Origin: Rhodococcus sp. HM1 | GTDB lineage: Bacteria; Actinomycetota; Actinomycetes; Mycobacteriales; Mycobacteriaceae | Length of the DNA: 64,000 nt | Direction of reading: 5' to 3' | NCBI RefSeq assembly: GCF_023218075.1 | Contig: NZ_JALPTB010000037.1 | Location: 1-64,000, forward strand | Shown: positions 31,822 to 41,543 of the stretch, one piece after another | Numbering within the stretch: position 1 is the stretch's first letter | Layout of the letters: every line of letters begins with the position of its first letter | Translations under genes and position numbers: made by a program | The notes under the pieces: model-generated | Database searches by the model: none | What the model was told of the DNA's origin: nothing | What the model saw: the letters and a program-made list of their open reading frames with translations, nothing else

Positions 31822-32970
31822 TCAGCGGAAGGCGTAGTCGGGAAAGCGTTCGTCGACGTCTTCGACGGTGAGCCCGAACTCCGCGAGGGTGTAGCGATGC
31901 GCGGGTTTGCGGTCGCCCTGGCGGCTTTCGGTGTGCAGGGCCACCATCGCCGCTTCGGCCTCGGCGCTGAGACCGATCTCGAAGCGGTCGTAGAGGGACC
32001 CGATCGTGCCGATCGGGTCCTCGACGAAGTCGCGGTAGGCGACGTCGACGAACCGGGCCCGGTCGTGCCGGGCCCGGACCTCGGTGAACTTCTCGAAACC
32101 GCGCGCCCACAGGTCGAGCTGGCTGCGGCCGATCGTGTCGCCGACGAAGACCTCCGACCACCCCTCCGAGGCCTGCGCGGTGAGGCTGCACACCGACGGG
32201 ATGACGGTGCGCGGGTCGCGATGGGTGACGACGACGAGCGCGTCCGGGTACACGGTGAGCAACTCGTCGAGCGCGAACAGGTGACTCGGGTTCTTCAGCA
32301 CCCAGCGCTTGTCGGCGTCGGGCAGGCCGATGAGCTGCAGGTTGCGGCGGTGCCGTTCGTAGGCGCTCGTCCAGTCCTGGGTGGCGAGCCACCGGGAGTA
32401 GGTGGGCAGGTGCGCGAGGCACTCGTACGACACGGACCGGAAGGACTGACGCAGCAGCTGCCAGCATTCCTCGACCTCACCGGCGGACATGTAGTGCACA
32501 CCCATGAACTCCGGATGCTCGATGTGGTGCTGCGCGAACCCGGCCTCGATCCCGGCGAACACCGGATTGTCCGCCCACGTGTCCCGCGGCGGCCGCGGCT
32601 GGGGCATCTCCGTCAGCCACATCTCGAGCCCCTGATGGGCCGGGTCGGCGGTGAGCAGCCGGTGCAGCGCGGTGGTGCCGGTGCGGGGCAGCCCGGTGAC
32701 GAAGATCGGGCGGGTGATCTCGACGTCGGCGTGCTCGGGATGCTGCTTCCAGGCGGCCTCGGACAGCAGGCGCGCGACGAGGGCGCCGCGCAGGAACACC
32801 CGCGACATCTTGCTGCCGAGCGGCGTCAGTTTCTCGTCGCGGGCGTACGACTCGAGCAGGACGTCGAGGGCCTCGCGGTAGTCGTCGCTGCCGAAGTCGG
32901 TCAGCCCGGTGATCCGGGTTGCGGACTCGTGCAGGGATTCGGCGCTGCCGACCGTGGTGCGTTCGGACAT
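31822..32970 (-). CDS. PAPS-dependent sulfotransferase family protein (Rv3529c-like)
   Basis: 382 residues. The 5'-phosphosulfate loop is ITRPIFVTGLPRTGTTALHR near residue 80-98, and the 3'-phosphate-binding Arg/Ser region is VVVTHRDPRTVIPSVCSL near 240. These are the two PAPS-binding motifs of the family. It is predicted to move sulfate from PAPS to a hydroxyl group. Last gene of a leftward operon with an SDR and a DUF1214 protein, the same trio and order as M. tuberculosis Rv3531c-Rv3530c-Rv3529c in the KstR-controlled steroid region (recalled). ATG 32970 is chosen because the in-frame upstream sequence is the hairpin repeat. PAPS-making genes lie 3 kb to the right. Confidence 0.85.
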   Translation of the reverse strand: MSERTTVGSAESLHESATRITGLTDFGSDDYREALDVLLESYARDEKLTPLGSKMSRVFLRGALVARLLSEAAWKQHPEHADVEITRPIFVTGLPRTGTTALHRLLTADPAHQGLEMWLTEMPQPRPPRDTWADNPVFAGIEAGFAQHHIEHPEFMGVHYMSAGEVEECWQLLRQSFRSVSYECLAHLPTYSRWLATQDWTSAYERHRRNLQLIGLPDADKRWVLKNPSHLFALDELLTVYPDALVVVTHRDPRTVIPSVCSLTAQASEGWSEVFVGDTIGRSQLDLWARGFEKFTEVRARHDRARFVDVAYRDFVEDPIGTIGSLYDRFEIGLSAEAEAAMVALHTESRQGDRKPAHRYTLAEFGLTVEDVDERFPDYAFR

Positions 32971-33029: not shown

Positions 33030-33821
33030 TCAATGGTGGAATTCGCCGCAGTTGACGTCGAGGCACTGCCCGGTGATCGCCGATGCCATCGGCGAGGCCA
33101 GGAAGATCACCGCGTCGGCGATCTCCTCGGTGGTGGGCAGGCGACGCAGGTCGCTGGCGGCTGCGGTGTGCTCGTAGATCTGCTCGACGGTGGTGCCGTA
33201 CTTACCGGCCTGGTGCTCGAAGTAGCTCCGGAGAATCGGGCCCCAGATGTAGCCGGGAGCAACAGAATTGACGCGGATTCCCTGGGGGCCGAGTTCGGTC
33301 GCCAGCGACTGCGACATCGACAGCAACGCCGACTTCGCGATCTTGTAACTGCCGTACTGTTCCTGGGAGTGCCGCACCACCATCGAATTGATGTTCACCA
33401 CTGCACCTTTCGCCTCGGCGAGGGCGGGGGTGAACAACTGGGTCAAGCGCAGCGCGCCGAGCACGGACAGTTCCACGCTGTCCCGGATGTGTTGGAAGTC
33501 GGTGCGCGCCAACGGCTTCATCGACGGGACCGAGAAGGCGTTGTTGACCAGCACGTGCACGGCGCCGAATTCCTCGGCGGCCGCGGCGACCAATGCGGCC
33601 GCGGACTCGTCGTCGGTGATGTCGGTGGGCACTCCCAAGGCGCGCCGGCCCAGCGCGGTGACCTCCGCGGCGACCTCGTCGAGCCGCTCGCGGGTGCGGG
33701 CTGCCAGCACGACGTCGGCTCCATGTTCGGCGCACCGGACCGCGAGGGTGTGCCCGAGGCCGGGCCCGACGCCGGAGATCACGACCACCCGGTCGTGCAG
33801 CAACCCCGCCGGCGCGCTCAC
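33030..33821 (-). CDS. Short-chain dehydrogenase/reductase (Rv3530c-like)
   Basis: 263 residues. Cofactor motif VVVISGVGPGLGHTLAVRCA, a variant of TGxxxGxG. LVNNAF at about 90. Catalytic Ser in NINSMVV and the Tyr-Lys pair in SYKIAKSALL. The C-terminal part has ASAITGQCLDVNCGEFHH, where classical SDRs have TGQxxxVDGG. It should oxidise or reduce a hydroxyl/keto pair with NAD(P). GTG 33821 overlaps the stop of the DUF1214 gene (GTGA), so the two are translationally coupled. The hairpin repeat follows directly. A steroid-like alcohol is a reasonable guess from context only. Confidence 0.87.
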   Translation of the reverse strand: MSAPAGLLHDRVVVISGVGPGLGHTLAVRCAEHGADVVLAARTRERLDEVAAEVTALGRRALGVPTDITDDESAAALVAAAAEEFGAVHVLVNNAFSVPSMKPLARTDFQHIRDSVELSVLGALRLTQLFTPALAEAKGAVVNINSMVVRHSQEQYGSYKIAKSALLSMSQSLATELGPQGIRVNSVAPGYIWGPILRSYFEHQAGKYGTTVEQIYEHTAAASDLRRLPTTEEIADAVIFLASPMASAITGQCLDVNCGEFHH

Positions 33822-34984
33822 GCCTGCATCCGATCGGCGATCGCGGTCTGGCGCGCCGCGATCCGCCGGGACCACGCCTCGGGGGTGATGCGGTTGGACT
33901 CGTGGAACGGCAGCGACTCGGCGATCTTGTCGAACGGAACCACCTGCGCCGTCGGACCGTCCGCGGACGTGAGCTCGCGGTCGATGCGCTGCCAGCGGAA
34001 CTGCAGGATGCCGCGGCTGCGGCCGAGCGTCTCGATCCAGTTGGTGATGCCGGGGTTGCGGTTCGAGATCACGATGCGGACCTTGCCGTCCGGATCCACC
34101 TGGGCCTGAGTGTTGTTCAGCGACGTCTGGTGGTGGATGTAGTCCAGCGAGATGTACCAGAGGCTGCCGATCTGGAACCCCAGGTAGGGGGCGTCGGACG
34201 CGGGCACGGTGAGGATCATCGCCTCGTCGTCGGCGAGTTCGTAGTGCCCGACGGACGAGTACTGCGTGTCCAGGCCTCCGGGGGTGCGGCGCGGTGCGGT
34301 CACGGTGTTGACCGGCAGCTTCAGGTAGAACCACTCGGGGAACTGCAGCCACGTCTTCACCCGCGAGACGAGCGCACGTCCGGCGCGCTCGTAGCGTTTG
34401 ACGGCGTCCTCCTGCGTCGGTTCGGCCGCGGGGGTGCCGAGCGTGTCGACCCGGTCGATGCGGACGGTGCCGCGTCGCTGCGACCAGTCGTTGTACACCT
34501 CCCGGATGACGAGCTGCGACGATCCGGGCGCGAGGGTGAAGTAGTTGCGCTCCGGATCGGCGGGGCCGGGGCCGAATCGCACCTCGAACGTGCCGTCGTC
34601 CTCGATGTGGATCGCACGGTCGTCGAAGGCGGTGACGTTGCCGGGCACGTCGGCGTCGGTGTAGTTGCCGGCGAGCACCTGGAAGCTCAGGTCGCAGGTC
34701 GTGCCGCGGCGTCCGGAGACCACGTACTCGGCGTCGTCGCGCACGGCCGCACCCCAGTACAGGGTGTCGGGGTTGTCCAGGCCCATCTTGGTGTAGGGAC
34801 CGGTGCCGGTGATGAGGACCGGGTGGGTGCTGCTGTGGGCCCAGGCGGCGTGCACGCACGCGGCGATTCCCCCGGCGAGGTAGCCGTAGCCCTCGGCGAG
34901 ATCCTGGTCGGTGCGGACGTGCGGCGCGGTGGCGACGAGTTTCTCGGCCTCGGCGATCGCCGCGGTGAGCGGATCGGTGATCAC
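33818..34984 (-). CDS. DUF1214-domain protein (Rv3531c-like)
   Basis: 388 residues from GTG 34984. The C-terminal third (FQIGSLWYISLDYIHHQTSLNN, then VRIVISNRNPGITNWIETLGRSRGILQFRWQ) is typical of DUF1214, whose members are predicted beta-rich and of unknown function. The upstream part has GTTCDLSFQVLAGNYTDADVPG. No signal peptide. AGGGAG lies six bases before GTG 34984. An ATG at 35005 would add seven residues but leaves no ribosome site. First gene of the operon with the SDR and sulfotransferase. Its promoter region shares two blocks with the cysD promoter. Role not known. It may be a non-catalytic partner or an enzyme of steroid metabolism. Confidence 0.8.
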   Translation of the reverse strand: MITDPLTAAIAEAEKLVATAPHVRTDQDLAEGYGYLAGGIAACVHAAWAHSSTHPVLITGTGPYTKMGLDNPDTLYWGAAVRDDAEYVVSGRRGTTCDLSFQVLAGNYTDADVPGNVTAFDDRAIHIEDDGTFEVRFGPGPADPERNYFTLAPGSSQLVIREVYNDWSQRRGTVRIDRVDTLGTPAAEPTQEDAVKRYERAGRALVSRVKTWLQFPEWFYLKLPVNTVTAPRRTPGGLDTQYSSVGHYELADDEAMILTVPASDAPYLGFQIGSLWYISLDYIHHQTSLNNTQAQVDPDGKVRIVISNRNPGITNWIETLGRSRGILQFRWQRIDRELTSADGPTAQVVPFDKIAESLPFHESNRITPEAWSRRIAARQTAIADRMQA

Positions 34985-34998
34985 ATCGATCTCCCTGT

Positions 34999-35015
34999 GG
35001 TCCAAATATGTACCG
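34999..35015 (-). promoter_or_regulatory. 17-bp shared block upstream of the DUF1214 gene
   Basis: Read in the direction of the gene, CGGTACATATTTGGACC ends 14 bases before the GTG at 34984. The identical 17 bases occur upstream of cysD (36089-36105) in the same relation to that gene. The GGTAC...GGACC ends make it an imperfect palindrome, so it may be an operator or a common initial transcribed segment. Confidence 0.65.
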
Positions 35016-35023
35016 CTGCGGTA
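35011..35023. promoter_or_regulatory. 13-bp palindrome, possible IclR operator
   Basis: TACCGCTGCGGTA is a perfect palindrome around a central T, in the divergent region between the DUF1214 gene and the IclR gene. IclR proteins often bind such sites next to their own gene. Assignment is by position only. Confidence 0.4.
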
Positions 35024-35043
35024 AGGTCTGGTTGGACCGACGA

Positions 35044-35057
35044 TAGAACGTGTTACA
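35044..35057. promoter_or_regulatory. KstR-type operator candidate, copy 1
   Basis: TAGAACGTGTTACA fits the consensus TnnAACnnGTTnnA reported for KstR, the TetR repressor of steroid catabolism. It is 12 bases before the IclR start codon and about 60 bases before the DUF1214 start, so it could control both directions. On the strand of the DUF1214 gene it is followed by TCGT, as is the second copy at 36046. Confidence 0.6.
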
Positions 35058-35068
35058 GGAAGTGGTCA

Positions 35069-36007
35069 ATGGTTCGTCTCAGCGATTCCACCGCGCCGAG
35101 CGGGGACGCTGCCGGGTCCGCCCGGCGCTCGCCGCCGACCGAACGGGTCGTGCAGGTCCTCGACCACCTCGTCGCGCACCCCGGCGTCCGGTTCGGCCTC
35201 TCCGAGCTCGCCCGCGAGCTGGGCCTGAGCAAACCCACCTGCCTCGGCATCCTCACCGCGCTCGCCGACGCGGGCTATCTCATGCGCGACCCGGTCGACA
35301 AGACCTACGGGCTCGGCCCCGCCCTGATCGTCGCCGGGCGCGCGGCGCAGCGCGGCTTCGCGGCCGGTCCGGTCGCGCACCGGCATCTCGCCCGGCTCAG
35401 CGCCCGGTTCGACGCCGCCTGCACCGCCTCCGCCGTGGTCGGCGACCGCATCGCGGTGCTCGACGTGGTGGGACCCCGGGGTGCGACGGCGAGCGCGCGG
35501 GTGGGGGAGGTGTACCCGTTCGCGCCGCCCGTCGGCCTGATGTACGTGCTGTGGGACACCGACCGGCGCCTCGAACAATGGCTGCGCCGCGAGCCGACCC
35601 TGCCGGTACGGCTCGACCGCCCGCATCTGCAGCGCGTGGTCGACCGGTGCCGGCGCACGGGATACCTCGTCGAATCGCTCACCCGGGGCGGGCGGCGGCT
35701 GTACGCGCTGATGGCCGGCGTGGTCGCGCACGACCTGGCGCCGGAACTGCGCGAACTGCTCGGGGAGCTGGTGTCCAGTCCGGGCGAGCGCGTCCTGTTC
35801 CCGGAGGAGGCCCCGGCCGGTGAACCGCTCGCGGTGAACCTGATCGCCGCGCCCGCCTACGACCCGGACGGACACCAATCGCTGGTCCTCGCGCTGCACG
35901 TCGAGGCCGAGATCGACGCCGCGGAGATCGCGCGGCGCGGCGCGGCGCTCGTCGAGGCGGCCGACGCGATCACCGCGGAGCTCGGCGGGCGACGTCCGGA
36001 GCGCTGA
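35069..36007 (+). CDS. IclR-family transcriptional regulator
   Basis: 312 residues. The winged helix covers about 25-85: PTERVVQVLDHLVAHPGVRFGLSELARELGLSKPTCLGILTALADAGYL. The effector domain includes FAAGPVAHRHLARLSARFDAACTASAVV. It is longer at the C-terminus than typical IclR proteins and lacks the usual conserved Cys region, so the ligand pocket may differ. The start is ATG 35069, with AGGAAGTGG upstream. It lies between two operons with matching promoter blocks and is the most likely local regulator besides a KstR-like protein. M. tuberculosis has no IclR gene in the corresponding place as far as I recall. Confidence 0.85.
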   Translation: MVRLSDSTAPSGDAAGSARRSPPTERVVQVLDHLVAHPGVRFGLSELARELGLSKPTCLGILTALADAGYLMRDPVDKTYGLGPALIVAGRAAQRGFAAGPVAHRHLARLSARFDAACTASAVVGDRIAVLDVVGPRGATASARVGEVYPFAPPVGLMYVLWDTDRRLEQWLRREPTLPVRLDRPHLQRVVDRCRRTGYLVESLTRGGRRLYALMAGVVAHDLAPELRELLGELVSSPGERVLFPEEAPAGEPLAVNLIAAPAYDPDGHQSLVLALHVEAEIDAAEIARRGAALVEAADAITAELGGRRPER

Positions 36008-36033
36008 CCGCCGCTCCGGGTCTCCCCAAACCG

Positions 36034-36063
36034 TTGACCCCGAATTGAAACTCGTTCTATCGT
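36034..36063 (+). promoter_or_regulatory. cysD: Candidate cysD promoter
   Basis: TTGACC (36034-36039), 18 bases, TATCGT (36058-36063). The KstR-type palindrome (36046-36059) lies in the spacer and touches the -10, an ideal place for repression. A second inverted repeat CTATCG-TTT-CGATAG (36057-36071) overlaps the -10 too. Confidence 0.5.
36046..36059. promoter_or_regulatory. KstR-type operator candidate, copy 2
   Basis: TGAAACTCGTTCTA fits TnnAACnnGTTnnA. Together with the next bases it shares CGTTCTATCGT, an exact 11-mer, with the copy upstream of the DUF1214 gene when both are read toward their target genes. The distance to the shared 17-bp block is 26 bases here and 25 there. Confidence 0.6.
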
Positions 36064-36088
36064 TTCGATAGTCCGACTTCGACCGAAT

Positions 36089-36105
36089 CGGTACATATTT
36101 GGACC
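36089..36105 (+). promoter_or_regulatory. 17-bp shared block upstream of cysD
   Basis: CGGTACATATTTGGACC, identical to the block before the DUF1214 gene and in the same orientation toward its gene. It ends 25 bases before the cysD ATG. It lies downstream of the predicted cysD promoter, so it would be in the 5' leader or act as a downstream operator. Confidence 0.65.
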
Positions 36106-36130
36106 GACATCCCGGGTGGGGAGTACCTCG

Positions 36131-37063
36131 ATGACCACGGCGCAGCCGTTTCGACCACCGTCCTACGAGTTGCCGCCCCTCCGCGCGCTCGAAGCCGAAT
36201 CCGTGCACATCTTCCGGGAGGTCGCGGCGACCTTCGAGCGGCCCGTGCTGCTGTTCTCGGGCGGCAAGGATTCGGCGGTGATGCTCCACCTCGCCGCCAA
36301 GGCGGTCTGGCCCGCGCCGCTGCCCTTCCCGGTCCTGCACATCGACACCGGCCACAACTTCGACGAGGTCGTCGAATTCCGCGACCGGGTCGTCGAGCGA
36401 CTCGGCCTGCGTCTGATCGTCGCGTCCGTCCAGGACGACATCGACGCCGGCCGTGCCGTCGAGGACACCGGTCCGCACGGCGGCCGCAACCGGTTGCAGA
36501 CCGGCACTCTGCTGCGTGCCCTGCGCGAAGGCGGCTTCGACGCGGTCTTCGGGGGCGCCCGCCGCGACGAGGAGAAGGCCCGCGCCAAGGAACGCATCTT
36601 CAGCTTCCGCGACCGGTTCGGCCAGTGGGATCCCAAGGCGCAGCGACCCGAACTGTGGCACCTGTACAACGGGCGGCACCGCAAGGGCGAGCACATCCGC
36701 GTCTTCCCTCTGTCGAACTGGACCGAACTCGACATCTGGTCGTACCTGCGCGACGAGAACATCGACCTGCCGGCGCTGTACTACGCGCACCGCCGGCCCG
36801 TCGTCGAACGCGACGGCATGCTCCTGGCGCACACAAGGTTTCTCGCTCTGCAGCCCGGAGAGCAGCCGCGCGAGGCGCTCGTGCGCTTCCGCACCGTCGG
36901 CGACGCCACCTGCACCGGCTGCGTCGAATCCACCGCAGCCACCGCCGAACAGGTGGTCGCCGAGGTCGCCGCCAGCCGCGTCACCGAACGCGGCGCCACC
37001 CGCGCCGACGACCGGATCTCCGAGGCGGGCATGGAAGACCGCAAGAAGGAGGGGTACTTCTGA
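36131..37063 (+). CDS. cysD: Sulfate adenylyltransferase subunit 2 (ATP sulfurylase)
   Basis: 310 residues, usual length. With the GTPase CysN it makes APS from sulfate and ATP. PP-loop SGGKDSAVMLHLAAKAVWP near residue 42, LHIDTGHNFDEV, FGGARRDEEKARAKERIFSFRD, and WTELDIWSYLRDENI are the conserved CysD blocks. The C-terminal GYF end is also typical. The start ATG 36131 has GGGTGGGGA upstream. A GTG at 36116 is part of that region and is unlikely. The last base of its stop is the first base of the cysNC start (TGATG), so the two are coupled. Confidence 0.95.
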   Translation: MTTAQPFRPPSYELPPLRALEAESVHIFREVAATFERPVLLFSGGKDSAVMLHLAAKAVWPAPLPFPVLHIDTGHNFDEVVEFRDRVVERLGLRLIVASVQDDIDAGRAVEDTGPHGGRNRLQTGTLLRALREGGFDAVFGGARRDEEKARAKERIFSFRDRFGQWDPKAQRPELWHLYNGRHRKGEHIRVFPLSNWTELDIWSYLRDENIDLPALYYAHRRPVVERDGMLLAHTRFLALQPGEQPREALVRFRTVGDATCTGCVESTAATAEQVVAEVAASRVTERGATRADDRISEAGMEDRKKEGYF

Positions 37064-38967
37064 TGTCCCGACTGCTGCGCATCGCGACCGCCGGCAGTGT
37101 CGACGACGGCAAGTCCACGCTGATCGGCCGGCTGCTGTTCGATTCCAAGGCCGTCTTCGAGGATCAACTCGAGGCCGTGGCCCGTACCAGCCGGGACCGC
37201 GGCGCCGAACAGACCGATCTGGCGCTGCTCACCGACGGCCTGCGCGCGGAACGGGAACAGGGCATCACCATCGACGTCGCGTACCGCTACTTCGCGACGC
37301 CGCACCGCAGCTTCGTCATCGCCGATACGCCGGGACACGAGCAGTACACCCGCAACATGGTCACCGGCGCCTCGACCGCCGACCTCGCGCTGATCCTGGT
37401 CGACGCCCGCAAGGGCATCCTCGAACAGACTCGGCGGCATGCCTTCCTGGCGAGTCTGCTCGGGGTGCCGCACCTGGTGCTGTGTGTGAACAAGATGGAT
37501 CTGGTGGACTGGTCGCAGGAACGGTTCGAGGAGATCTGCGACGAATTCCGGCTCTTCGCAGCCAAACTGGAGATCCACGACCTGTACTTCGTGCCGATCT
37601 CGGCGCTGCAGGGCGACAACGTCGTCAGCCGCACCGCGAACATGCGGTGGTACGAAGGGACTTCGCTGCTGCATCACCTCGAACAGGTGCACATCGGGTC
37701 CGACCACAACCTCATCGACGCGCGCCTGCCGGTGCAGTACGTCATCCGCCGCAGTGGCGAATTCCGCCGCTACGCGGGCACCGGCGACTTCCGCGGCTAC
37801 GCGGGCACCGGCGACTTCCGCGGCTACGCGGGCACCGGCGACTTCCGCGGCTACGCGGGCACCGTCGCCAGCGGCGTGTTCAAACCCGGCGACGAGGTGG
37901 TCGCACTGCCGTCCGGGTTCGGTACCCGCGTCGAGCGCATCTGGGGTCCCGGCGGAGAACCGCTCGAGCATGCGTTCGCCGACGTCGCCGTGTGCGTCGA
38001 ACTCGCGGACGAACTCGACCTCGGCCGTGGGGACATGCTGTGCCGGCCCAACAACCGGCCGCTGGTCGGCACCGACATCGATGCCATGGTCTGCTGGCTC
38101 ACCGAACGCTCGAGCCTCGATCCGGACACCCGCTACACCCTGCTGCACACCACGAAGGCGGTCCATGCCCGGCCTGTGCGGCTCGACTACCGGCTCGACG
38201 TCAACACGCTGCACCGCGACGAGACCGCAACCACGCTGAGCCTCAACGAGATCGGGCGCGTACAGCTGCGCACTCAGCAGCCGCTGCTGTCCGATCCGTA
38301 CCGGCGCAACCGCACCACCGGCAGCTTCGTCCTCGTCGACGAGGCCACCGGCAACACCGTCGCCGCCGGCATGATCACCGGACCCACCCTCGCCGAGACG
38401 GGCGCCGTGTGGCACCCCGCCGAGGTCGTCCGCGCCGACCGCGCCACCACGGGCAGGACGGTGTGGCTGACCGGGCTGTCCGCATCCGGAAAGTCCACGG
38501 TCGCAGCGGAACTCGAACGAAAGCTGCTCGCGGCGGGAATTCCCGCCTATCGCCTGGACGGCGACAATCTGCGCCACGGACTCAACTCCGACCTCGGATT
38601 CGGACCCGAGGACCGCGCCGAGAACGTGCGCCGCGTCGGGGCCGTCGCCCAGTTGATGGCCGACGCCGGCCTCGTCGCGATCTGCTCGCTGATCAGCCCC
38701 TACCGAGCCGACCGCGACCGGATCCGGCAGCAGCACGCCGACGCCGGCATCCCGTTCGTCGAGGTGTTCGTCGACACCCCGCTCGCCGACTGCGAGGCCC
38801 GCGACCCCAAGGGCATGTACGCCCGGGCCCGGGCCGGGGAGATCAGCGGCTTCACCGGCGTCGACGATCCGTACGAACCGCCACAGAACCCCGACCTGGT
38901 GCTCCGCCCCTCCGACGGCGATCCGGTCGCGCAGGCCGCCCGGATCATGGAAGTGTTGATGCCATGA
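37063..38967 (+). CDS. cysNC: Bifunctional sulfate adenylyltransferase subunit 1 / APS kinase
   Basis: 634 residues. The N-terminal GTPase (CysN) has AGSVDDGKSTLIGRLL at 10-25, DTPGHEQYTRNM near 87 and NKMDLVD near 143. EF-Tu-like barrel domains follow. The C-terminal APS kinase (CysC) has GLSASGKSTVAAELE near 472 and YRADRDRIR, so the protein makes APS activation energetically favourable and then PAPS. In the second domain a nine-residue unit GDFRGYAGT occurs four times in a row (about residues 232-267), where other CysN proteins have it once. Three of the four DNA units are identical. The gene is fused cysN-cysC as in mycobacteria and overlaps cysQ by four bases. Confidence 0.95.
   Translation: MSRLLRIATAGSVDDGKSTLIGRLLFDSKAVFEDQLEAVARTSRDRGAEQTDLALLTDGLRAEREQGITIDVAYRYFATPHRSFVIADTPGHEQYTRNMVTGASTADLALILVDARKGILEQTRRHAFLASLLGVPHLVLCVNKMDLVDWSQERFEEICDEFRLFAAKLEIHDLYFVPISALQGDNVVSRTANMRWYEGTSLLHHLEQVHIGSDHNLIDARLPVQYVIRRSGEFRRYAGTGDFRGYAGTGDFRGYAGTGDFRGYAGTVASGVFKPGDEVVALPSGFGTRVERIWGPGGEPLEHAFADVAVCVELADELDLGRGDMLCRPNNRPLVGTDIDAMVCWLTERSSLDPDTRYTLLHTTKAVHARPVRLDYRLDVNTLHRDETATTLSLNEIGRVQLRTQQPLLSDPYRRNRTTGSFVLVDEATGNTVAAGMITGPTLAETGAVWHPAEVVRADRATTGRTVWLTGLSASGKSTVAAELERKLLAAGIPAYRLDGDNLRHGLNSDLGFGPEDRAENVRRVGAVAQLMADAGLVAICSLISPYRADRDRIRQQHADAGIPFVEVFVDTPLADCEARDPKGMYARARAGEISGFTGVDDPYEPPQNPDLVLRPSDGDPVAQAARIMEVLMP
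37756..37863 (+). repeat. Four-unit 27-bp in-frame tandem repeat inside cysNC
   Basis: Units at 37756, 37783, 37810 and 37837. The last three are identical and the first differs at a few bases (GEFRRYAGT against GDFRGYAGT). The period of 27 keeps the frame, so copy-number change would lengthen or shorten the protein by nine residues without breaking it. Confidence 0.92.
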
Positions 38968-40082
38968 CAGACGATGCTGCTCTCGCCGCCGAGATCGCCA
39001 CGGCGGCAGGAGAACTGTTGCTGACCGTTCGAGCCGCCGAGGCCGACGCCCTGAGCGGGCGCGAACTCGGCCGCCGCGGTGACCACGACGCGAACGTGCT
39101 CATCCTCGAAATGCTGGCCGAGCACCGTCCCGGCGACGCCGTGCTGTCCGAGGAATCCGCGGACGATCCGGCGCGCGTCGACGCCGAGCGGGTATGGATC
39201 ATCGACCCGCTCGACGGGTCGAAGGAATACGGGATGCTCGGCCACACCGACTGGGCCGTGCACGTCGCGTTGTGGGAGGCCGGTCGCGGCCTGACCGCCG
39301 GGGCGGTCGCCCAGCCGGGCCTCGGCGCCGTGTACAGCACCGACGAGGCGCCCGTCGTCGAACGGCGTCCGCTCGGCGAGGGACGTCCCCGCATCGTGGT
39401 CAGCGGTAGCCGCCCGCCGGAGTTCGCCGGTGCGGTGGCCCGCGCCGTCGGTGCCGACCTCGTGCGCATGGGTTCGGCGGGCGCGAAGGCGATGGCGGTG
39501 CTCCGCGGCGAGGTCGACGCCTATGTTCACGCCGGTGGCCAGTGGGAGTGGGACTCGGCGGCCCCCGTCGCCGTCGCGCAGGCGGCCGGATTGTTCTGCG
39601 CGCGGATCGACGGCTCGGAACTCGAATACAACCGCCCCCACCCCTATCTGCCGGATCTGGTGATCTGCCGGCCGGACTGGGCGCCGACGCTCATGGCGGC
39701 CGTCGCCGAGCACGCGACCGCGCCGACCGACAGCCCCCGGGTCGCGATGGCTCGGGCCTACATCCGGTCGCTGATCAGCCACGATGCGTCCCACGTCCGC
39801 CTGGCCGCCGATGCCTGGCGGGTGGAGAACGGGCAGCGAACCGGCGACACCGGGGCCGAGATCCGGTACCGGCTCGAGCACGGCCCGGAGTACCGGCCGC
39901 TCCGCCGGGTGCGGAATCTGACGTTCCACGAGTGGGGCAACAACGTCGTTGCGCGCTTCCTGCTCGAGATAGATACCGGCAGTGGTGCCGATATGACGGT
40001 GTCGATCACCGAGCACTTCGACATCCCGGCGGGGGAGATCCGTTCGATTCTCGCGATCATCGAGCCCCTGTCCGAAGAATAG
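38964..40082 (+). CDS. cysQ: CysQ (PAP phosphatase) fused to a SnoaL-like domain
   Basis: 372 residues, against about 250-270 for CysQ alone. The N-terminal part is the inositol-phosphatase fold: LSEESADD, WIIDPLDGSKEYG near residue 80 (metal ligands) and GQWEWDSAAPVAVAQAAG near 190. It hydrolyses 3'-phosphoadenosine 5'-phosphate, the by-product of sulfotransfer and PAPS reduction. From about residue 255 a second domain begins (VAMARAYIRSLISHDASHVRLA, then HEWGNNVVARFLLEIDTG), resembling SnoaL/NTF2-type DUF8021 proteins of actinobacteria. The frame is continuous with no start codon signal at the join. ATG 38964 overlaps the cysNC stop. The role of the added domain is unknown. Confidence 0.85.
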   Translation: MTDDAALAAEIATAAGELLLTVRAAEADALSGRELGRRGDHDANVLILEMLAEHRPGDAVLSEESADDPARVDAERVWIIDPLDGSKEYGMLGHTDWAVHVALWEAGRGLTAGAVAQPGLGAVYSTDEAPVVERRPLGEGRPRIVVSGSRPPEFAGAVARAVGADLVRMGSAGAKAMAVLRGEVDAYVHAGGQWEWDSAAPVAVAQAAGLFCARIDGSELEYNRPHPYLPDLVICRPDWAPTLMAAVAEHATAPTDSPRVAMARAYIRSLISHDASHVRLAADAWRVENGQRTGDTGAEIRYRLEHGPEYRPLRRVRNLTFHEWGNNVVARFLLEIDTGSGADMTVSITEHFDIPAGEIRSILAIIEPLSEE

Positions 40083-40146: not shown

Positions 40147-41145
40147 ATGGAACAGTTCAACGAGGCCCGGGACATCGGGGACGGCATCCACGCGATCCCC
40201 GTTCCCGTCGCGGACCTGCCGGTCGGCGACACCCAGGTCTACGCAGTCGAGTCCCAACGCGGCGTGATCCTCGTGGACGTGGGGTGGAACAACGACACCT
40301 CCTGGAATGCGCTGCAGGCCGGGCTCGCATCGGCCGGACTGTCGGTGACCGACGTCGAAGGGGTGGTCGTCACACACTTCCATCCCGACCACGTCGGCCT
40401 CACCGGCCGCATCCGCGAAGCGTCCGGATGCTGGGTCGGCATGCACGAAGCGGACTTCGAACAGCTCGGACACATGATGGCCGGCCACGACTGGACGAAC
40501 CGGGAACTCGACCAGTGGGTCAAGGCCGGGGCGCCCGCCGAGTACATCGAGGAATTCCTCGCCGCCGGCCGTGATCGCGACGGCGTCCCGGACGAGAAAC
40601 CGGACCGGGTGTTGAAGACCGACGAGATCATCCCGCTCGCCGGACGCACCCTGCGAACCGTGTTCACCCCCGGCCACACCCCGGGCCACGCGTGCTTCTT
40701 CATCGAGGAACACGGCATCCTCTTCAGCGGCGACCACGTGCTCGCCAAGACCACCCCGCACGTCGGCGAATTCGACTTCCCCGTGGCCGAACGCGACGCG
40801 CTGGGGGAGTTCCTCGACTCGCTGCGCGCCGTCGCGACTCTGCCCGCCCGCCGCACCCTGCCCGCGCACCGGCAGCCCATCGACGACCTCGCAGCCCGGA
40901 CGGAGGCGCTCGTCGAACACCACGAACGTCGCCTCGACGATCTCTACGAGTCGTTCGGGGACGAGGAGCTGACGCTGTGGCAGGCCACCGAACGCATGAC
41001 GTGGTACCGGCCGTGGGACGAGACACCGCCGCGCGGCAAGCAGATGGCCATGTCCGAAGGCTCGGCGCACATCCGCCACCTCATCGAGCGGGGGCGCGCC
41101 CGCCGCGTCCCCGGAACCGATCCGGCGCGGTTCGTCCGCGTGTGA
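40147..41145 (+). CDS. MBL-fold metallo-hydrolase
   Basis: 332 residues of the metallo-beta-lactamase superfamily. Zinc motif THFHPDHVGLTGRIRE near residue 76, then TPGHTPGHACFF and FSGDHVLAKTTP, and a distal His in LPAHRQPIDD. A C-terminal helical region (TLWQATERMTWYRPW) is typical of the group with broad thioester, lactone or sulfate-ester hydrolases. The substrate cannot be told from sequence. The start ATG 40147 has CGGAGG upstream. It follows cysQ by 64 bases, in a gap whose only features are a weak TTGAAC and a short palindrome, so it may be a separate transcript. Confidence 0.85.
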   Translation: MEQFNEARDIGDGIHAIPVPVADLPVGDTQVYAVESQRGVILVDVGWNNDTSWNALQAGLASAGLSVTDVEGVVVTHFHPDHVGLTGRIREASGCWVGMHEADFEQLGHMMAGHDWTNRELDQWVKAGAPAEYIEEFLAAGRDRDGVPDEKPDRVLKTDEIIPLAGRTLRTVFTPGHTPGHACFFIEEHGILFSGDHVLAKTTPHVGEFDFPVAERDALGEFLDSLRAVATLPARRTLPAHRQPIDDLAARTEALVEHHERRLDDLYESFGDEELTLWQATERMTWYRPWDETPPRGKQMAMSEGSAHIRHLIERGRARRVPGTDPARFVRV

Positions 41146-41177: not shown

Positions 41178-41543
41178 ATGACGCCCGACCAGCTCGTCAC
41201 CGAATTCTGCGCCGCCTGGGCGGAACCGGATCCGGCCGCGCTCGCTGCGTACTTCACCGACGACGCCGTGTACCACAACATTCCGCTGGAGGAGGTCCAC
41301 GGCCGTGCCGCCATCGAGGAGTACTTCGCCGGGATGGTCGCGACGTTCGGCGGTATCGACTTCCGCATCCATCGCCAGCTCGCGAGCGACAACCTCGTCC
41401 TCAACGAGCGCACCGACGTGCTGACCGTCAACGGGCGCACGGTCGAGGTCCCCGTCATGGGCTCGTTCGAGGTGGCCGACGGGAAGATCGCCGCGTGGCG
41501 GGACTACTTCGACATGGGCCCGCTCGCGGCGACCACAGGATAG
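41178..41543 (+). CDS. Limonene-1,2-epoxide hydrolase / SnoaL-like protein
   Basis: 121 residues with an NTF2-like fold: TPDQLVTEFCAAWAEPDPAALAAYFTDDAVYHNIPLEEVHG, then VPVMGSFEVADGKIAAWRDYFDMG at the C-terminus, which fits the limonene-epoxide hydrolase family pattern (Asp-Arg-Asp-like residues D..R..D in WRDYFD and upstream). It may hydrolyse an epoxide or isomerise a steroid-like substrate. The start ATG 41178 has GAGAGGCAGG upstream. It is 32 bases after the hydrolase and probably co-transcribed with it. Confidence 0.75.
   Translation: MTPDQLVTEFCAAWAEPDPAALAAYFTDDAVYHNIPLEEVHGRAAIEEYFAGMVATFGGIDFRIHRQLASDNLVLNERTDVLTVNGRTVEVPVMGSFEVADGKIAAWRDYFDMGPLAATTG

Follow-up and report, generated by a model that had tools for sequence, protein, structure and literature searches.

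The locus considered here is a group of sulfotransferase and sulfate-activation genes of Rhodococcus sp. HM1, lying in a stretch of 64,000 nucleotides that we call the window (NCBI RefSeq assembly GCF_023218075.1, contig NZ_JALPTB010000037.1, positions 1 to 64,000; contig C178 of a 6.93-Mb genome). Its closest described counterpart is the trio Rv3531c-Rv3530c-Rv3529c of the KstR regulon in Mycobacterium tuberculosis and M. smegmatis, which likewise has a KstR palindrome before the first gene and the same kind of gene set: a DUF1214-like gene, a short-chain dehydrogenase/reductase (SDR) gene and a sulfotransferase gene. For M. tuberculosis, a gel shift published in 2007 showed KstR on a 29-bp Rv3531c/Rv3532 probe containing TAGAACGTGTTCCT, and for kstR itself the motif is described as lying before and partly over the -10 (PMC1995591), as it would at the proposed window promoters. 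Rv3531c is predicted to be required on cholesterol, Rv3530c and Rv3529c not being listed (PMC6429209); Rv3529c has been named Stf1 (PMC8882603). The accessible text of PMC1995591 and PMC6429209 mentions no IclR, no genes for 3'-phosphoadenosine 5'-phosphosulfate (PAPS) and no sulfation role for this trio. The window, in contrast, has a KstR box also at cysD-cysNC, plus a proposed operator for an IclR-family regulator.

Three further systems were compared with the window by description, not by sequence. The BT_0411-BT_0416 cluster of Bacteroides thetaiotaomicron sulfates cholesterol, its PAPS gene and sulfotransferase being cholesterol-induced (PMC9417993). As in the window, a sulfotransferase stands beside PAPS-making genes, but the phylum is different and the accessible text mentions no KstR or IclR boxes. 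The cysN2C-cysD2-stf0 cluster of R. qingshengii IGTS8 has fused CysNC, CysD and a sulfotransferase, with a second, unfused CysDN for assimilation, again as in the window genome; however, it is listed with a sulfatase and Stf0, responds to dibenzothiophene, and no steroid or IclR link is mentioned in the accessible text (PMC8557817). Finally, SRTF2 of Pimelobacter simplex is a sterol-induced IclR-type gene beside a ketosteroid dehydrogenase gene (PMC7062782), but its gene neighbourhood is other than that of the window iclR.

In our opinion, the locus is probably a dedicated, PAPS-dependent sulfation module of steroid catabolism, gated by KstR together with a local IclR. The KstR half is not new, since the gel shift at the Rv3531c promoter was shown in 2007 (PMC1995591); in mycobacteria the trio is already known to be under KstR, and in Bacteroides a cholesterol sulfotransferase linked to PAPS supply is known. 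As for the original prediction, of a system not seen described, searches of open-licence PubMed Central papers yielded no IclR operator, no KstR box at cysDNC, no sulfation role in actinobacterial steroid catabolism and no assigned role for the DUF1214-like/SDR/sulfotransferase trio. None of the three genes is mentioned in the main text of PMC3182942, and a term search of the accessible text of PMC4810484, PMC3161971, PMC6498646, PMC4881515, PMC3068626 and PMC8281962 returned no statement on a sulfotransferase in it. Linking the trio with a dedicated regulator and with the sole source of PAPS detected in the genome suggests a concrete and testable role, steroid sulfation. If true, this would be a new branch of steroid degradation, bearing on bioprocessing strains, the environmental fate of steroids and the related mycobacterial genes, and it would bring a new IclR sensor, with a steroid derivative as its possible ligand. 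Many related bacteria share this apparent wiring, which points to sulfation as a neglected part of steroid metabolism in bacteria.

Proposed promoters, KstR-type boxes and steroid genes

The leftward operon has the order DUF1214-like, SDR, sulfotransferase; the rightward set consists of iclR, cysD, cysNC, cysQ, a metallo-beta-lactamase (MBL)-fold hydrolase gene and a gene for a small limonene-epoxide-hydrolase/SnoaL-fold protein. Two promoters with a duplicated two-part control region had been predicted, and the duplicated sites are confirmed: an exact 17-mer and a KstR-type palindrome are present at both, and the run CGTTCTATCGT is common to both control regions.

34999..35015 (palindrome 34999-35014), minus strand: 17-mer with the proposed IclR operator, exact copy of CGGTACATATTTGGACC
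35040..35045, minus strand: proposed -10 TATCGT of the leftward promoter (TAnnnT in 20 of 20 aligned sequences, window included)
35044..35057, minus strand: KstR-type box TGTAACACGTTCTA, in the -35/-10 spacer of the leftward promoter
35064..35069, minus strand: proposed -35 TTGACC of the leftward promoter (TTGACC-like in most aligned sequences)
36034..36039, plus strand: proposed -35 TTGACC of the cysD promoter, from the alignment
36046..36059, plus strand: KstR-type box TGAAACTCGTTCTA, between -35 and -10 of the proposed cysD promoter
36058..36063, plus strand: proposed -10 TATCGT of the cysD promoter (TAnnnT in 14 of 14 aligned sequences)
36089..36105 (palindrome 36090-36105), plus strand: second 17-mer with the proposed IclR operator, exact copy of CGGTACATATTTGGACC

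Within the window, CGGTACATATTTGGACC has no third place at up to three mismatches, and the KstR-type pattern TnnAACnnGTTnnA has exactly two sites, 35044-35057 and 36046-36059; for neither did any of 100 shuffles give two. From the CGTTCTATCGT run to the 17-mer there are 24 intervening bases on the left and 25 on the right. The predicted figures of 25 and 26 are offsets. Each operon has TTGACC, 18 bases and TATCGT, with the KstR-type box in the spacer and sharing the TA of the proposed -10. Transcripts are predicted to begin near 35033 on the minus strand and near 36070 on the plus strand. At both predicted promoters the TnnAACnnGTTnnA palindrome would overlap or just precede the -10, as expected of KstR regulon members. 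The left box read in plus orientation, TAGAACGTGTTACA, is identical to the published Rv3503c/Rv3504 box, which tested positive for KstR in M. tuberculosis (PMC1995591).

An alignment of the left region (20 sequences, the window and 19 relatives; mean column identity 47%) has two conserved islands, an AAC..GTTCTA core with TAnnnT, and GGTACA.AT.TG, besides a -35 that is TTGACC-like with few exceptions. The cysD-region alignment (14 sequences) shows the same order of elements. In both alignments GGTNCA is also preceded, at a short distance, by a conserved TACC or ACC, which may be a third half-site. The proposed left -35 and the iclR start codon have one base in common, so that the divergent DUF1214-like and iclR genes share one small control region.

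KstR itself was looked for and is encoded in the genome: a TetR-type open reading frame (ORF; L101) matches solved KstR chains at phmmer E-values of 1e-87 to 3.5e-86 (1e-87 to 3mnl_A; 2.7e-86 to 5cw8_A, the latter named KstR) and adjoins the palindromic TAGAACACGTTCTA. The prediction that the KstR palindrome is not scattered over the genome fares less simply. It is linked to both 17-mers (for random placement, the chance that two given sites both have a KstR-pattern match within 60 bp is roughly estimated at P about 8e-7), but the pattern has 53 genomic sites against 17 for the reversed control, so that it has a background. From 50 of the 53 sites, 20 regions with 23 sites were chosen, mostly sites near TAGAAC or GTTCTA; steroid- or lipid-type genes stand beside them in about eight of the 20, judged by eye, the remainder having no evident connection. 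Among the genes preceded by KstR-pattern boxes, curated models identify those for 3-oxosteroid 1-dehydrogenase, HsaA and steroid 3-ketoacyl-CoA thiolase. With KstR, these are the four confirmed among seven products from such regions put to searches; the KshA-like, KshB-like and Cyp125-like products received no NCBIfam name.

The genes of the leftward operon are these.

33818..34984, minus strand: DUF1214-like gene, first of the operon, GTG start (PF06742 23.1 bits; 6ans_A E 8.4e-30)
33030..33821, minus strand: SDR gene (NCBIfam NF005909 425.1 bits, cut-off 258)
31822..32970, minus strand: sulfotransferase gene, Sulfotransfer_3 (PF13469 201.6 bits, cut-off 27)

The sulfotransferase aligns along its length with Protein Data Bank chain 2zq5_A (phmmer E 2e-160), an entry that we take to be Rv3529c/STF1. 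The predicted resemblance to Rv3531c-Rv3530c-Rv3529c is supported in this way, the sequence comparison covering the sulfotransferase and 2zq5. The enzyme carries two loop-like stretches, GLPRTGTTALH and THRDPRTVIPSVCS, presumably binding PAPS.

We suggest the following chemistry. CysD and CysNC would make PAPS, the sulfotransferase would pass its sulfate to a steroid-derived hydroxyl, CysQ would clear the leftover 3'-phosphoadenosine 5'-phosphate (PAP), and the SDR and the DUF1214-like protein would prepare or process the substrate. As to its purpose, we think it most likely that an alcohol, phenolic or catecholic intermediate is diverted here, as overflow or for protection. That Rv3531c alone of the trio is listed as predicted to be required on cholesterol would fit a DUF1214-like protein of importance to the main route, with sulfation as a side branch around it. 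A stronger form, to which we give somewhat less than an even chance, is that steroid catabolism in this family of actinobacteria has a standing, regulated sulfonation branch, in which an intermediate of steroid ring degradation, once reduced by the SDR, is sulfated under the control of KstR and of a dedicated IclR that senses this intermediate, with PAPS made for it alone; at its boldest, the sulfate ester would be a leaving group or tag for a DUF1214-like step that is missing from pathway maps.

Alternatively, the product might be the sulfate of a cell-envelope lipid, a quinone or a xenobiotic, made during growth on steroids or lipids, with KstR as a nutritional cue only. Sulfotransfer_3 enzymes do have varied or unknown acceptors; in one genus (loci G030, G057 and G091) iclR and its box are kept with neither a KstR box nor a listed APS (adenosine 5'-phosphosulfate) kinase nearby; and the PAPS-sulfotransferase cluster of R. 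qingshengii IGTS8 responds to dibenzothiophene (PMC8557817). On the other hand, the trio stands directly behind steroid A/B-ring genes, at one locus by curated models and at three by similarity. At the former (L186, genus g11), KshA is divergent from HsaA-HsaC-HsaB-DUF1214-like-SDR-sulfotransferase, and cysD-cysNC-cysQ follows about 3 kb on; HsaA, HsaC and HsaB score above curated-model cut-offs, and KshA has no NCBIfam match but aligns with chains of 3-ketosteroid 9-alpha-hydroxylase (E 3.7e-166 and 2.6e-164). L184 (SDR not seen), L185 and L188 have a similar order; gene names in these three and in L196 were given partly by similarity or by eye. At L181, called Mycobacterium-like from its neighbours, the trio adjoins a KshA-like gene. 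On balance we regard a non-steroid product as unlikely, though it is the most serious competitor of a steroid sulfation module. To judge from 296 genomes drawn across the phylum, the module seems to be a trait of the family: only seven have a DUF1214-like match at E 1e-80, and all seven belong to it.

The 17-mer and the iclR gene

35069..36007, plus strand: gene for an IclR-family regulator (PF09339 HTH_IclR 33.9 bits, cut-off 22)

The product has an IclR-type winged helix-turn-helix, PF09339 being above its cut-off; its effector part has no Pfam effector-domain match at E 0.001, and phmmer alignments to IclR chains run to residue 201-203. The 17-mer, which contains the palindrome GGTnCAnATnTGnACC, was predicted not to be scattered, and the 6.93-Mb genome has two copies only, both in these control regions; the generalised palindrome GGTNCANATNTGNACC finds the same two sites and its reversed control none. 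At up to two mismatches the genomic sites, 161, exceed the 72 of the control.

In a sample of 151 genomes of the family, 112 have a DUF1214-like match at E 1e-60 or better, and 65 hold 68 IclR matches, of which 67 are divergent from a DUF1214-like gene at 83-397 bp. For each of the 118 DUF1214-like matches we scored the palindrome over 12 positions in the preceding 300 bases. At least 11 positions agree in 60 of the 67 loci with iclR and in one of the 51 without (reversed-pattern control, 0/67 and 0/51). The exact KstR pattern occurs in 58/67 and 8/51, its reversed control in none of either. Loci without iclR in which the DUF1214-like gene seems to be first in its transcript keep the KstR box alone (for example G081, G083, G134 and G145), and hence the two elements behave like sites of two proteins. 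The single iclR-less exception (G071, L225) and a locus with 10/12 positions (G011, L228) retain the 45-base offset to the KstR box; they appear to have lost iclR, the palindrome remaining intact or decayed.

Closer relatives agree. An IclR orthologue of 73-100% identity exists in 15 of the 18 genomes of a genus sample, our own included (two others have distant matches of 29-30% and one has none), and in each of these 15 loci an exact palindrome precedes the DUF1214-like gene; on the cysD side two of them, L029 and L032, lack another exact copy. The nearest named relative among the matches listed is R. zopfii, with 92% identity in IclR. Among named relatives of Rhodococcus, Aldersonia and Nocardia, both the KstR pattern and a palindrome of at least 10/12 positions stand upstream of iclR in 63 of 63 loci, a 64th, a 29% Arthrobacter match, being excluded.

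Since the palindrome tracks the adjacent iclR across loci, the 17-mer is most likely the operator of the IclR encoded between the operons. The original prediction already had IclR as a possible second regulator; on the present reading the 17-mer is not a nameless second half of a KstR region. It would also be possible to regard the module as an ordinary part of the KstR regulon, the 17-mer serving another protein or RNA-level control and IclR controlling other genes. KstR boxes are present at both promoters and KstR binding at the Rv3531c promoter is published (PMC1995591); further, both 17-mers are oriented alike toward their own operon and lie inside the proposed leader, the left one near the start codon (about +19 to +34 of the DUF1214-side transcript, from a predicted start). 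We nevertheless find this improbable, given how the palindrome follows iclR, the lack of another exact genomic site, and the cysD copy being a perfect palindrome, GGTACACATGTGTACC, in several relatives. The eight one-mismatch sites in the genome lie inside ORFs (five), at an ORF edge (one) or without an ORF start within 300 bp (two), by our own ORF calls, and on these grounds a wide 17-mer regulon was also rejected.

With the 17-mer as IclR operator, KstR in the -35/-10 spacer would block polymerase, and IclR bound just past the start site, at about +19 to +35, would block escape or elongation. IclR on the left site would also cover the iclR promoter region and, because that site is in front of iclR too, it probably controls its own gene. 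KstR is released by steroid CoA thioesters. For full expression two signals would be needed, a steroid, on which KstR leaves, and another, on which IclR leaves, the simplest candidate being the sulfate acceptor or its sulfated form; the output would be the sulfotransferase together with donor supply and waste handling.

On the cysD side we considered 69 loci with cysD beside iclR (from 76; seven without cysD there were dropped). The gap between the two genes has AACnnGTTCTA in 64/69, a palindrome of at least 11/12 positions in 19/69 (reversed control 0/69) and both in 18/69. Named Rhodococcus with cysD have the exact palindrome in 13 of 14 loci, the remaining one reaching 10/12 positions. In Nocardia the cysD-side palindrome is absent, and AACnnGTTCTA lies within 60 bp of cysD in 44/46 loci. 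Two named genera, then, have the PAPS genes linked to a KstR-type motif. Eight Nocardia sequences preserve the layout, with TTGACC upstream; their -10, TAGTTT- or TAATTT-like, is near enough to the start codon for a leaderless cysD transcript to be possible. Judged from these motifs, cysD in other genera appears to belong to this circuit too, and the circuit comes in two designs.

PAPS supply

36131..37063, plus strand: cysD, ATP sulfurylase small subunit (TIGR02039 462.6 bits, cut-off 396.6)
37063..38967, plus strand: cysNC, ATP sulfurylase large subunit fused to APS kinase (NF004035 934.6 bits, cut-off 715)
38964..40082, plus strand: cysQ, PAP phosphatase-like (PF00459 100.2 bits; 5djf_A E 8.1e-68, residues 3-249)

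The models for CysD and for the fused CysN-APS kinase are both above cut-off, as expected for sulfate activation. The third gene is better termed CysQ-like, because it misses the CysQ equivalog TIGR01331 (88 bits, cut-off 228.8) while matching PF00459 and the PAP phosphatase 5djf_A. The genome has a single APS kinase match (PF01583), in cysNC, and one match each to the two sulfotransferase families searched, PF13469 and PF00685, both in the gene described here.

One could suppose that cysD-cysNC-cysQ is simply the cell's sulfate assimilation operon, its position by the sulfotransferase being incidental. ATP sulfurylase does serve both assimilation and sulfation. However, of three PF01507 (PAPS_reduct) matches in the genome, one is the window cysD and two are adjacent on contig C192, where we read them as cysH and cysD; next comes a CysN-like ORF, 433 residues long and without a kinase domain, and the 16-kb C192 stretch has no KstR pattern. 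The reductive branch of M. tuberculosis begins at APS, not PAPS (PMC3141025), and the same has been argued for Rhodococcus CysH (PMC8557817), so APS kinase should not be needed for assimilation. Further, the APS kinase is linked to the trio in relatives, in several layouts. Counting from 150 listed kinase matches, so that the figures are lower bounds, and measuring to the DUF1214-like gene rather than the whole trio, at least 83 of the 118 family loci have an APS kinase within 20 kb, at least 59 of these within 6 kb. Within 6 kb it is found in at least 53/67 loci with iclR and at least 6/51 without; at 6-20 kb at least two and at least 22 more are added, respectively. In G080, G132 and G143 the kinase match ends 120 bp upstream of the DUF1214-like match on the same strand. 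With a separate set on C192, a plain assimilation operon is in our opinion very improbable, and comparison supports the prediction that this PAPS supply is set apart for the sulfotransferase. That the likeness of the two control regions is due to chance or to a recent duplication without function, which two copies in one window might resemble, can be dismissed, since the sites persist in an alignment whose columns average 47% identity and are shared by Rhodococcus, Aldersonia and Nocardia.

Several observations weigh against a dedicated steroid sulfation module under KstR and IclR as formulated above. The relatives are not independent of each other: L045/L183 and L085/L177 are probably duplicate records, and several Nocardia loci are strains of one species. 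Among the 67 iclR loci, three reach only 9/12 and four only 10/12 palindrome positions, and nine have no exact KstR pattern; since G030, G057, G075 and G091 have the IclR palindrome without a KstR box, IclR control without KstR can exist. The palindrome is missing from 50/69 cysD promoters, above all in Nocardia, so the duplicated two-part design is not universal. In 35 of the 118 loci there is no APS kinase within 20 kb among the matches listed (it is farther away, or there is none on the contig). Further, sulfation need not belong to the main pathway, as Rv3529c and Rv3530c are not listed as required in the accessible text of PMC6429209, and the acceptor could be other than a steroid. On the whole, the interpretation originally offered is partly supported.

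Minor features of the locus and its relatives

The trio with cysD and cysNC occurs in most named Nocardia and Rhodococcus loci; the records of R. ruber and R. zopfii are among those with the module. No SDR, cysD or cysNC was seen in the examined stretch of Aldersonia (L048, L092), and no cysD or cysNC between iclR and cysQ on the short contig of R. yananensis (L032/L043). At L184 (genus g4) no SDR was detected between the DUF1214-like and sulfotransferase genes, and a CysQ-like gene (41-42%) comes next on the other strand. L181 has an iclR of 52% identity and a palindrome variant, GTTCCATATACGGACC. One genus (L173; G057 and G091, that is, L259 and L263) has iclR and the palindrome without a KstR box or a listed APS kinase nearby, and may show an ancestral or rewired IclR function. 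The iclR matches L021, L164 and L276 (in G013, G061 and G068) contain one internal stop codon.

The first gene of the leftward operon is called DUF1214-like because its PF06742 score, 23.1 bits, is just under the Pfam gathering score of 25. Its start is most likely the GTG at 34984, which we prefer over the longer TTG version of the ORF list because of a purine-rich run before 34984 and because of relatives. Its fold model has a mean predicted local distance difference test (pLDDT) of 80, and a PHROGs search gave no match. The closest solved chain to the SDR is 3ucx_A (E 6.8e-115).

The part of cysQ at 39714-40082 encodes a C-terminal extension of about 120 residues that is weakly SnoaL-like (PF12680 E 0.055); it is present in 15 named Rhodococcus loci and, of 20 more loci in the family, in five, one of which is probably a duplicate. 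Within the CysN portion of cysNC, at 37756-37864, an in-frame 27-bp unit occurs 4.0 times (GDFRGYAGT repeated); it is single-copy in 13 relatives compared, and the repeat is either a real expansion or an assembly artefact. Two genes follow cysQ.

40147..41145, plus strand: MBL-fold hydrolase gene (PF00753 99.3 bits), adjoining cysQ in near relatives
41178..41543, plus strand: limonene-epoxide-hydrolase/SnoaL-fold protein gene (PF07858 84.9 bits), near cysQ in part of the relatives

Both are probably members of the cysD operon, the second being its last gene.

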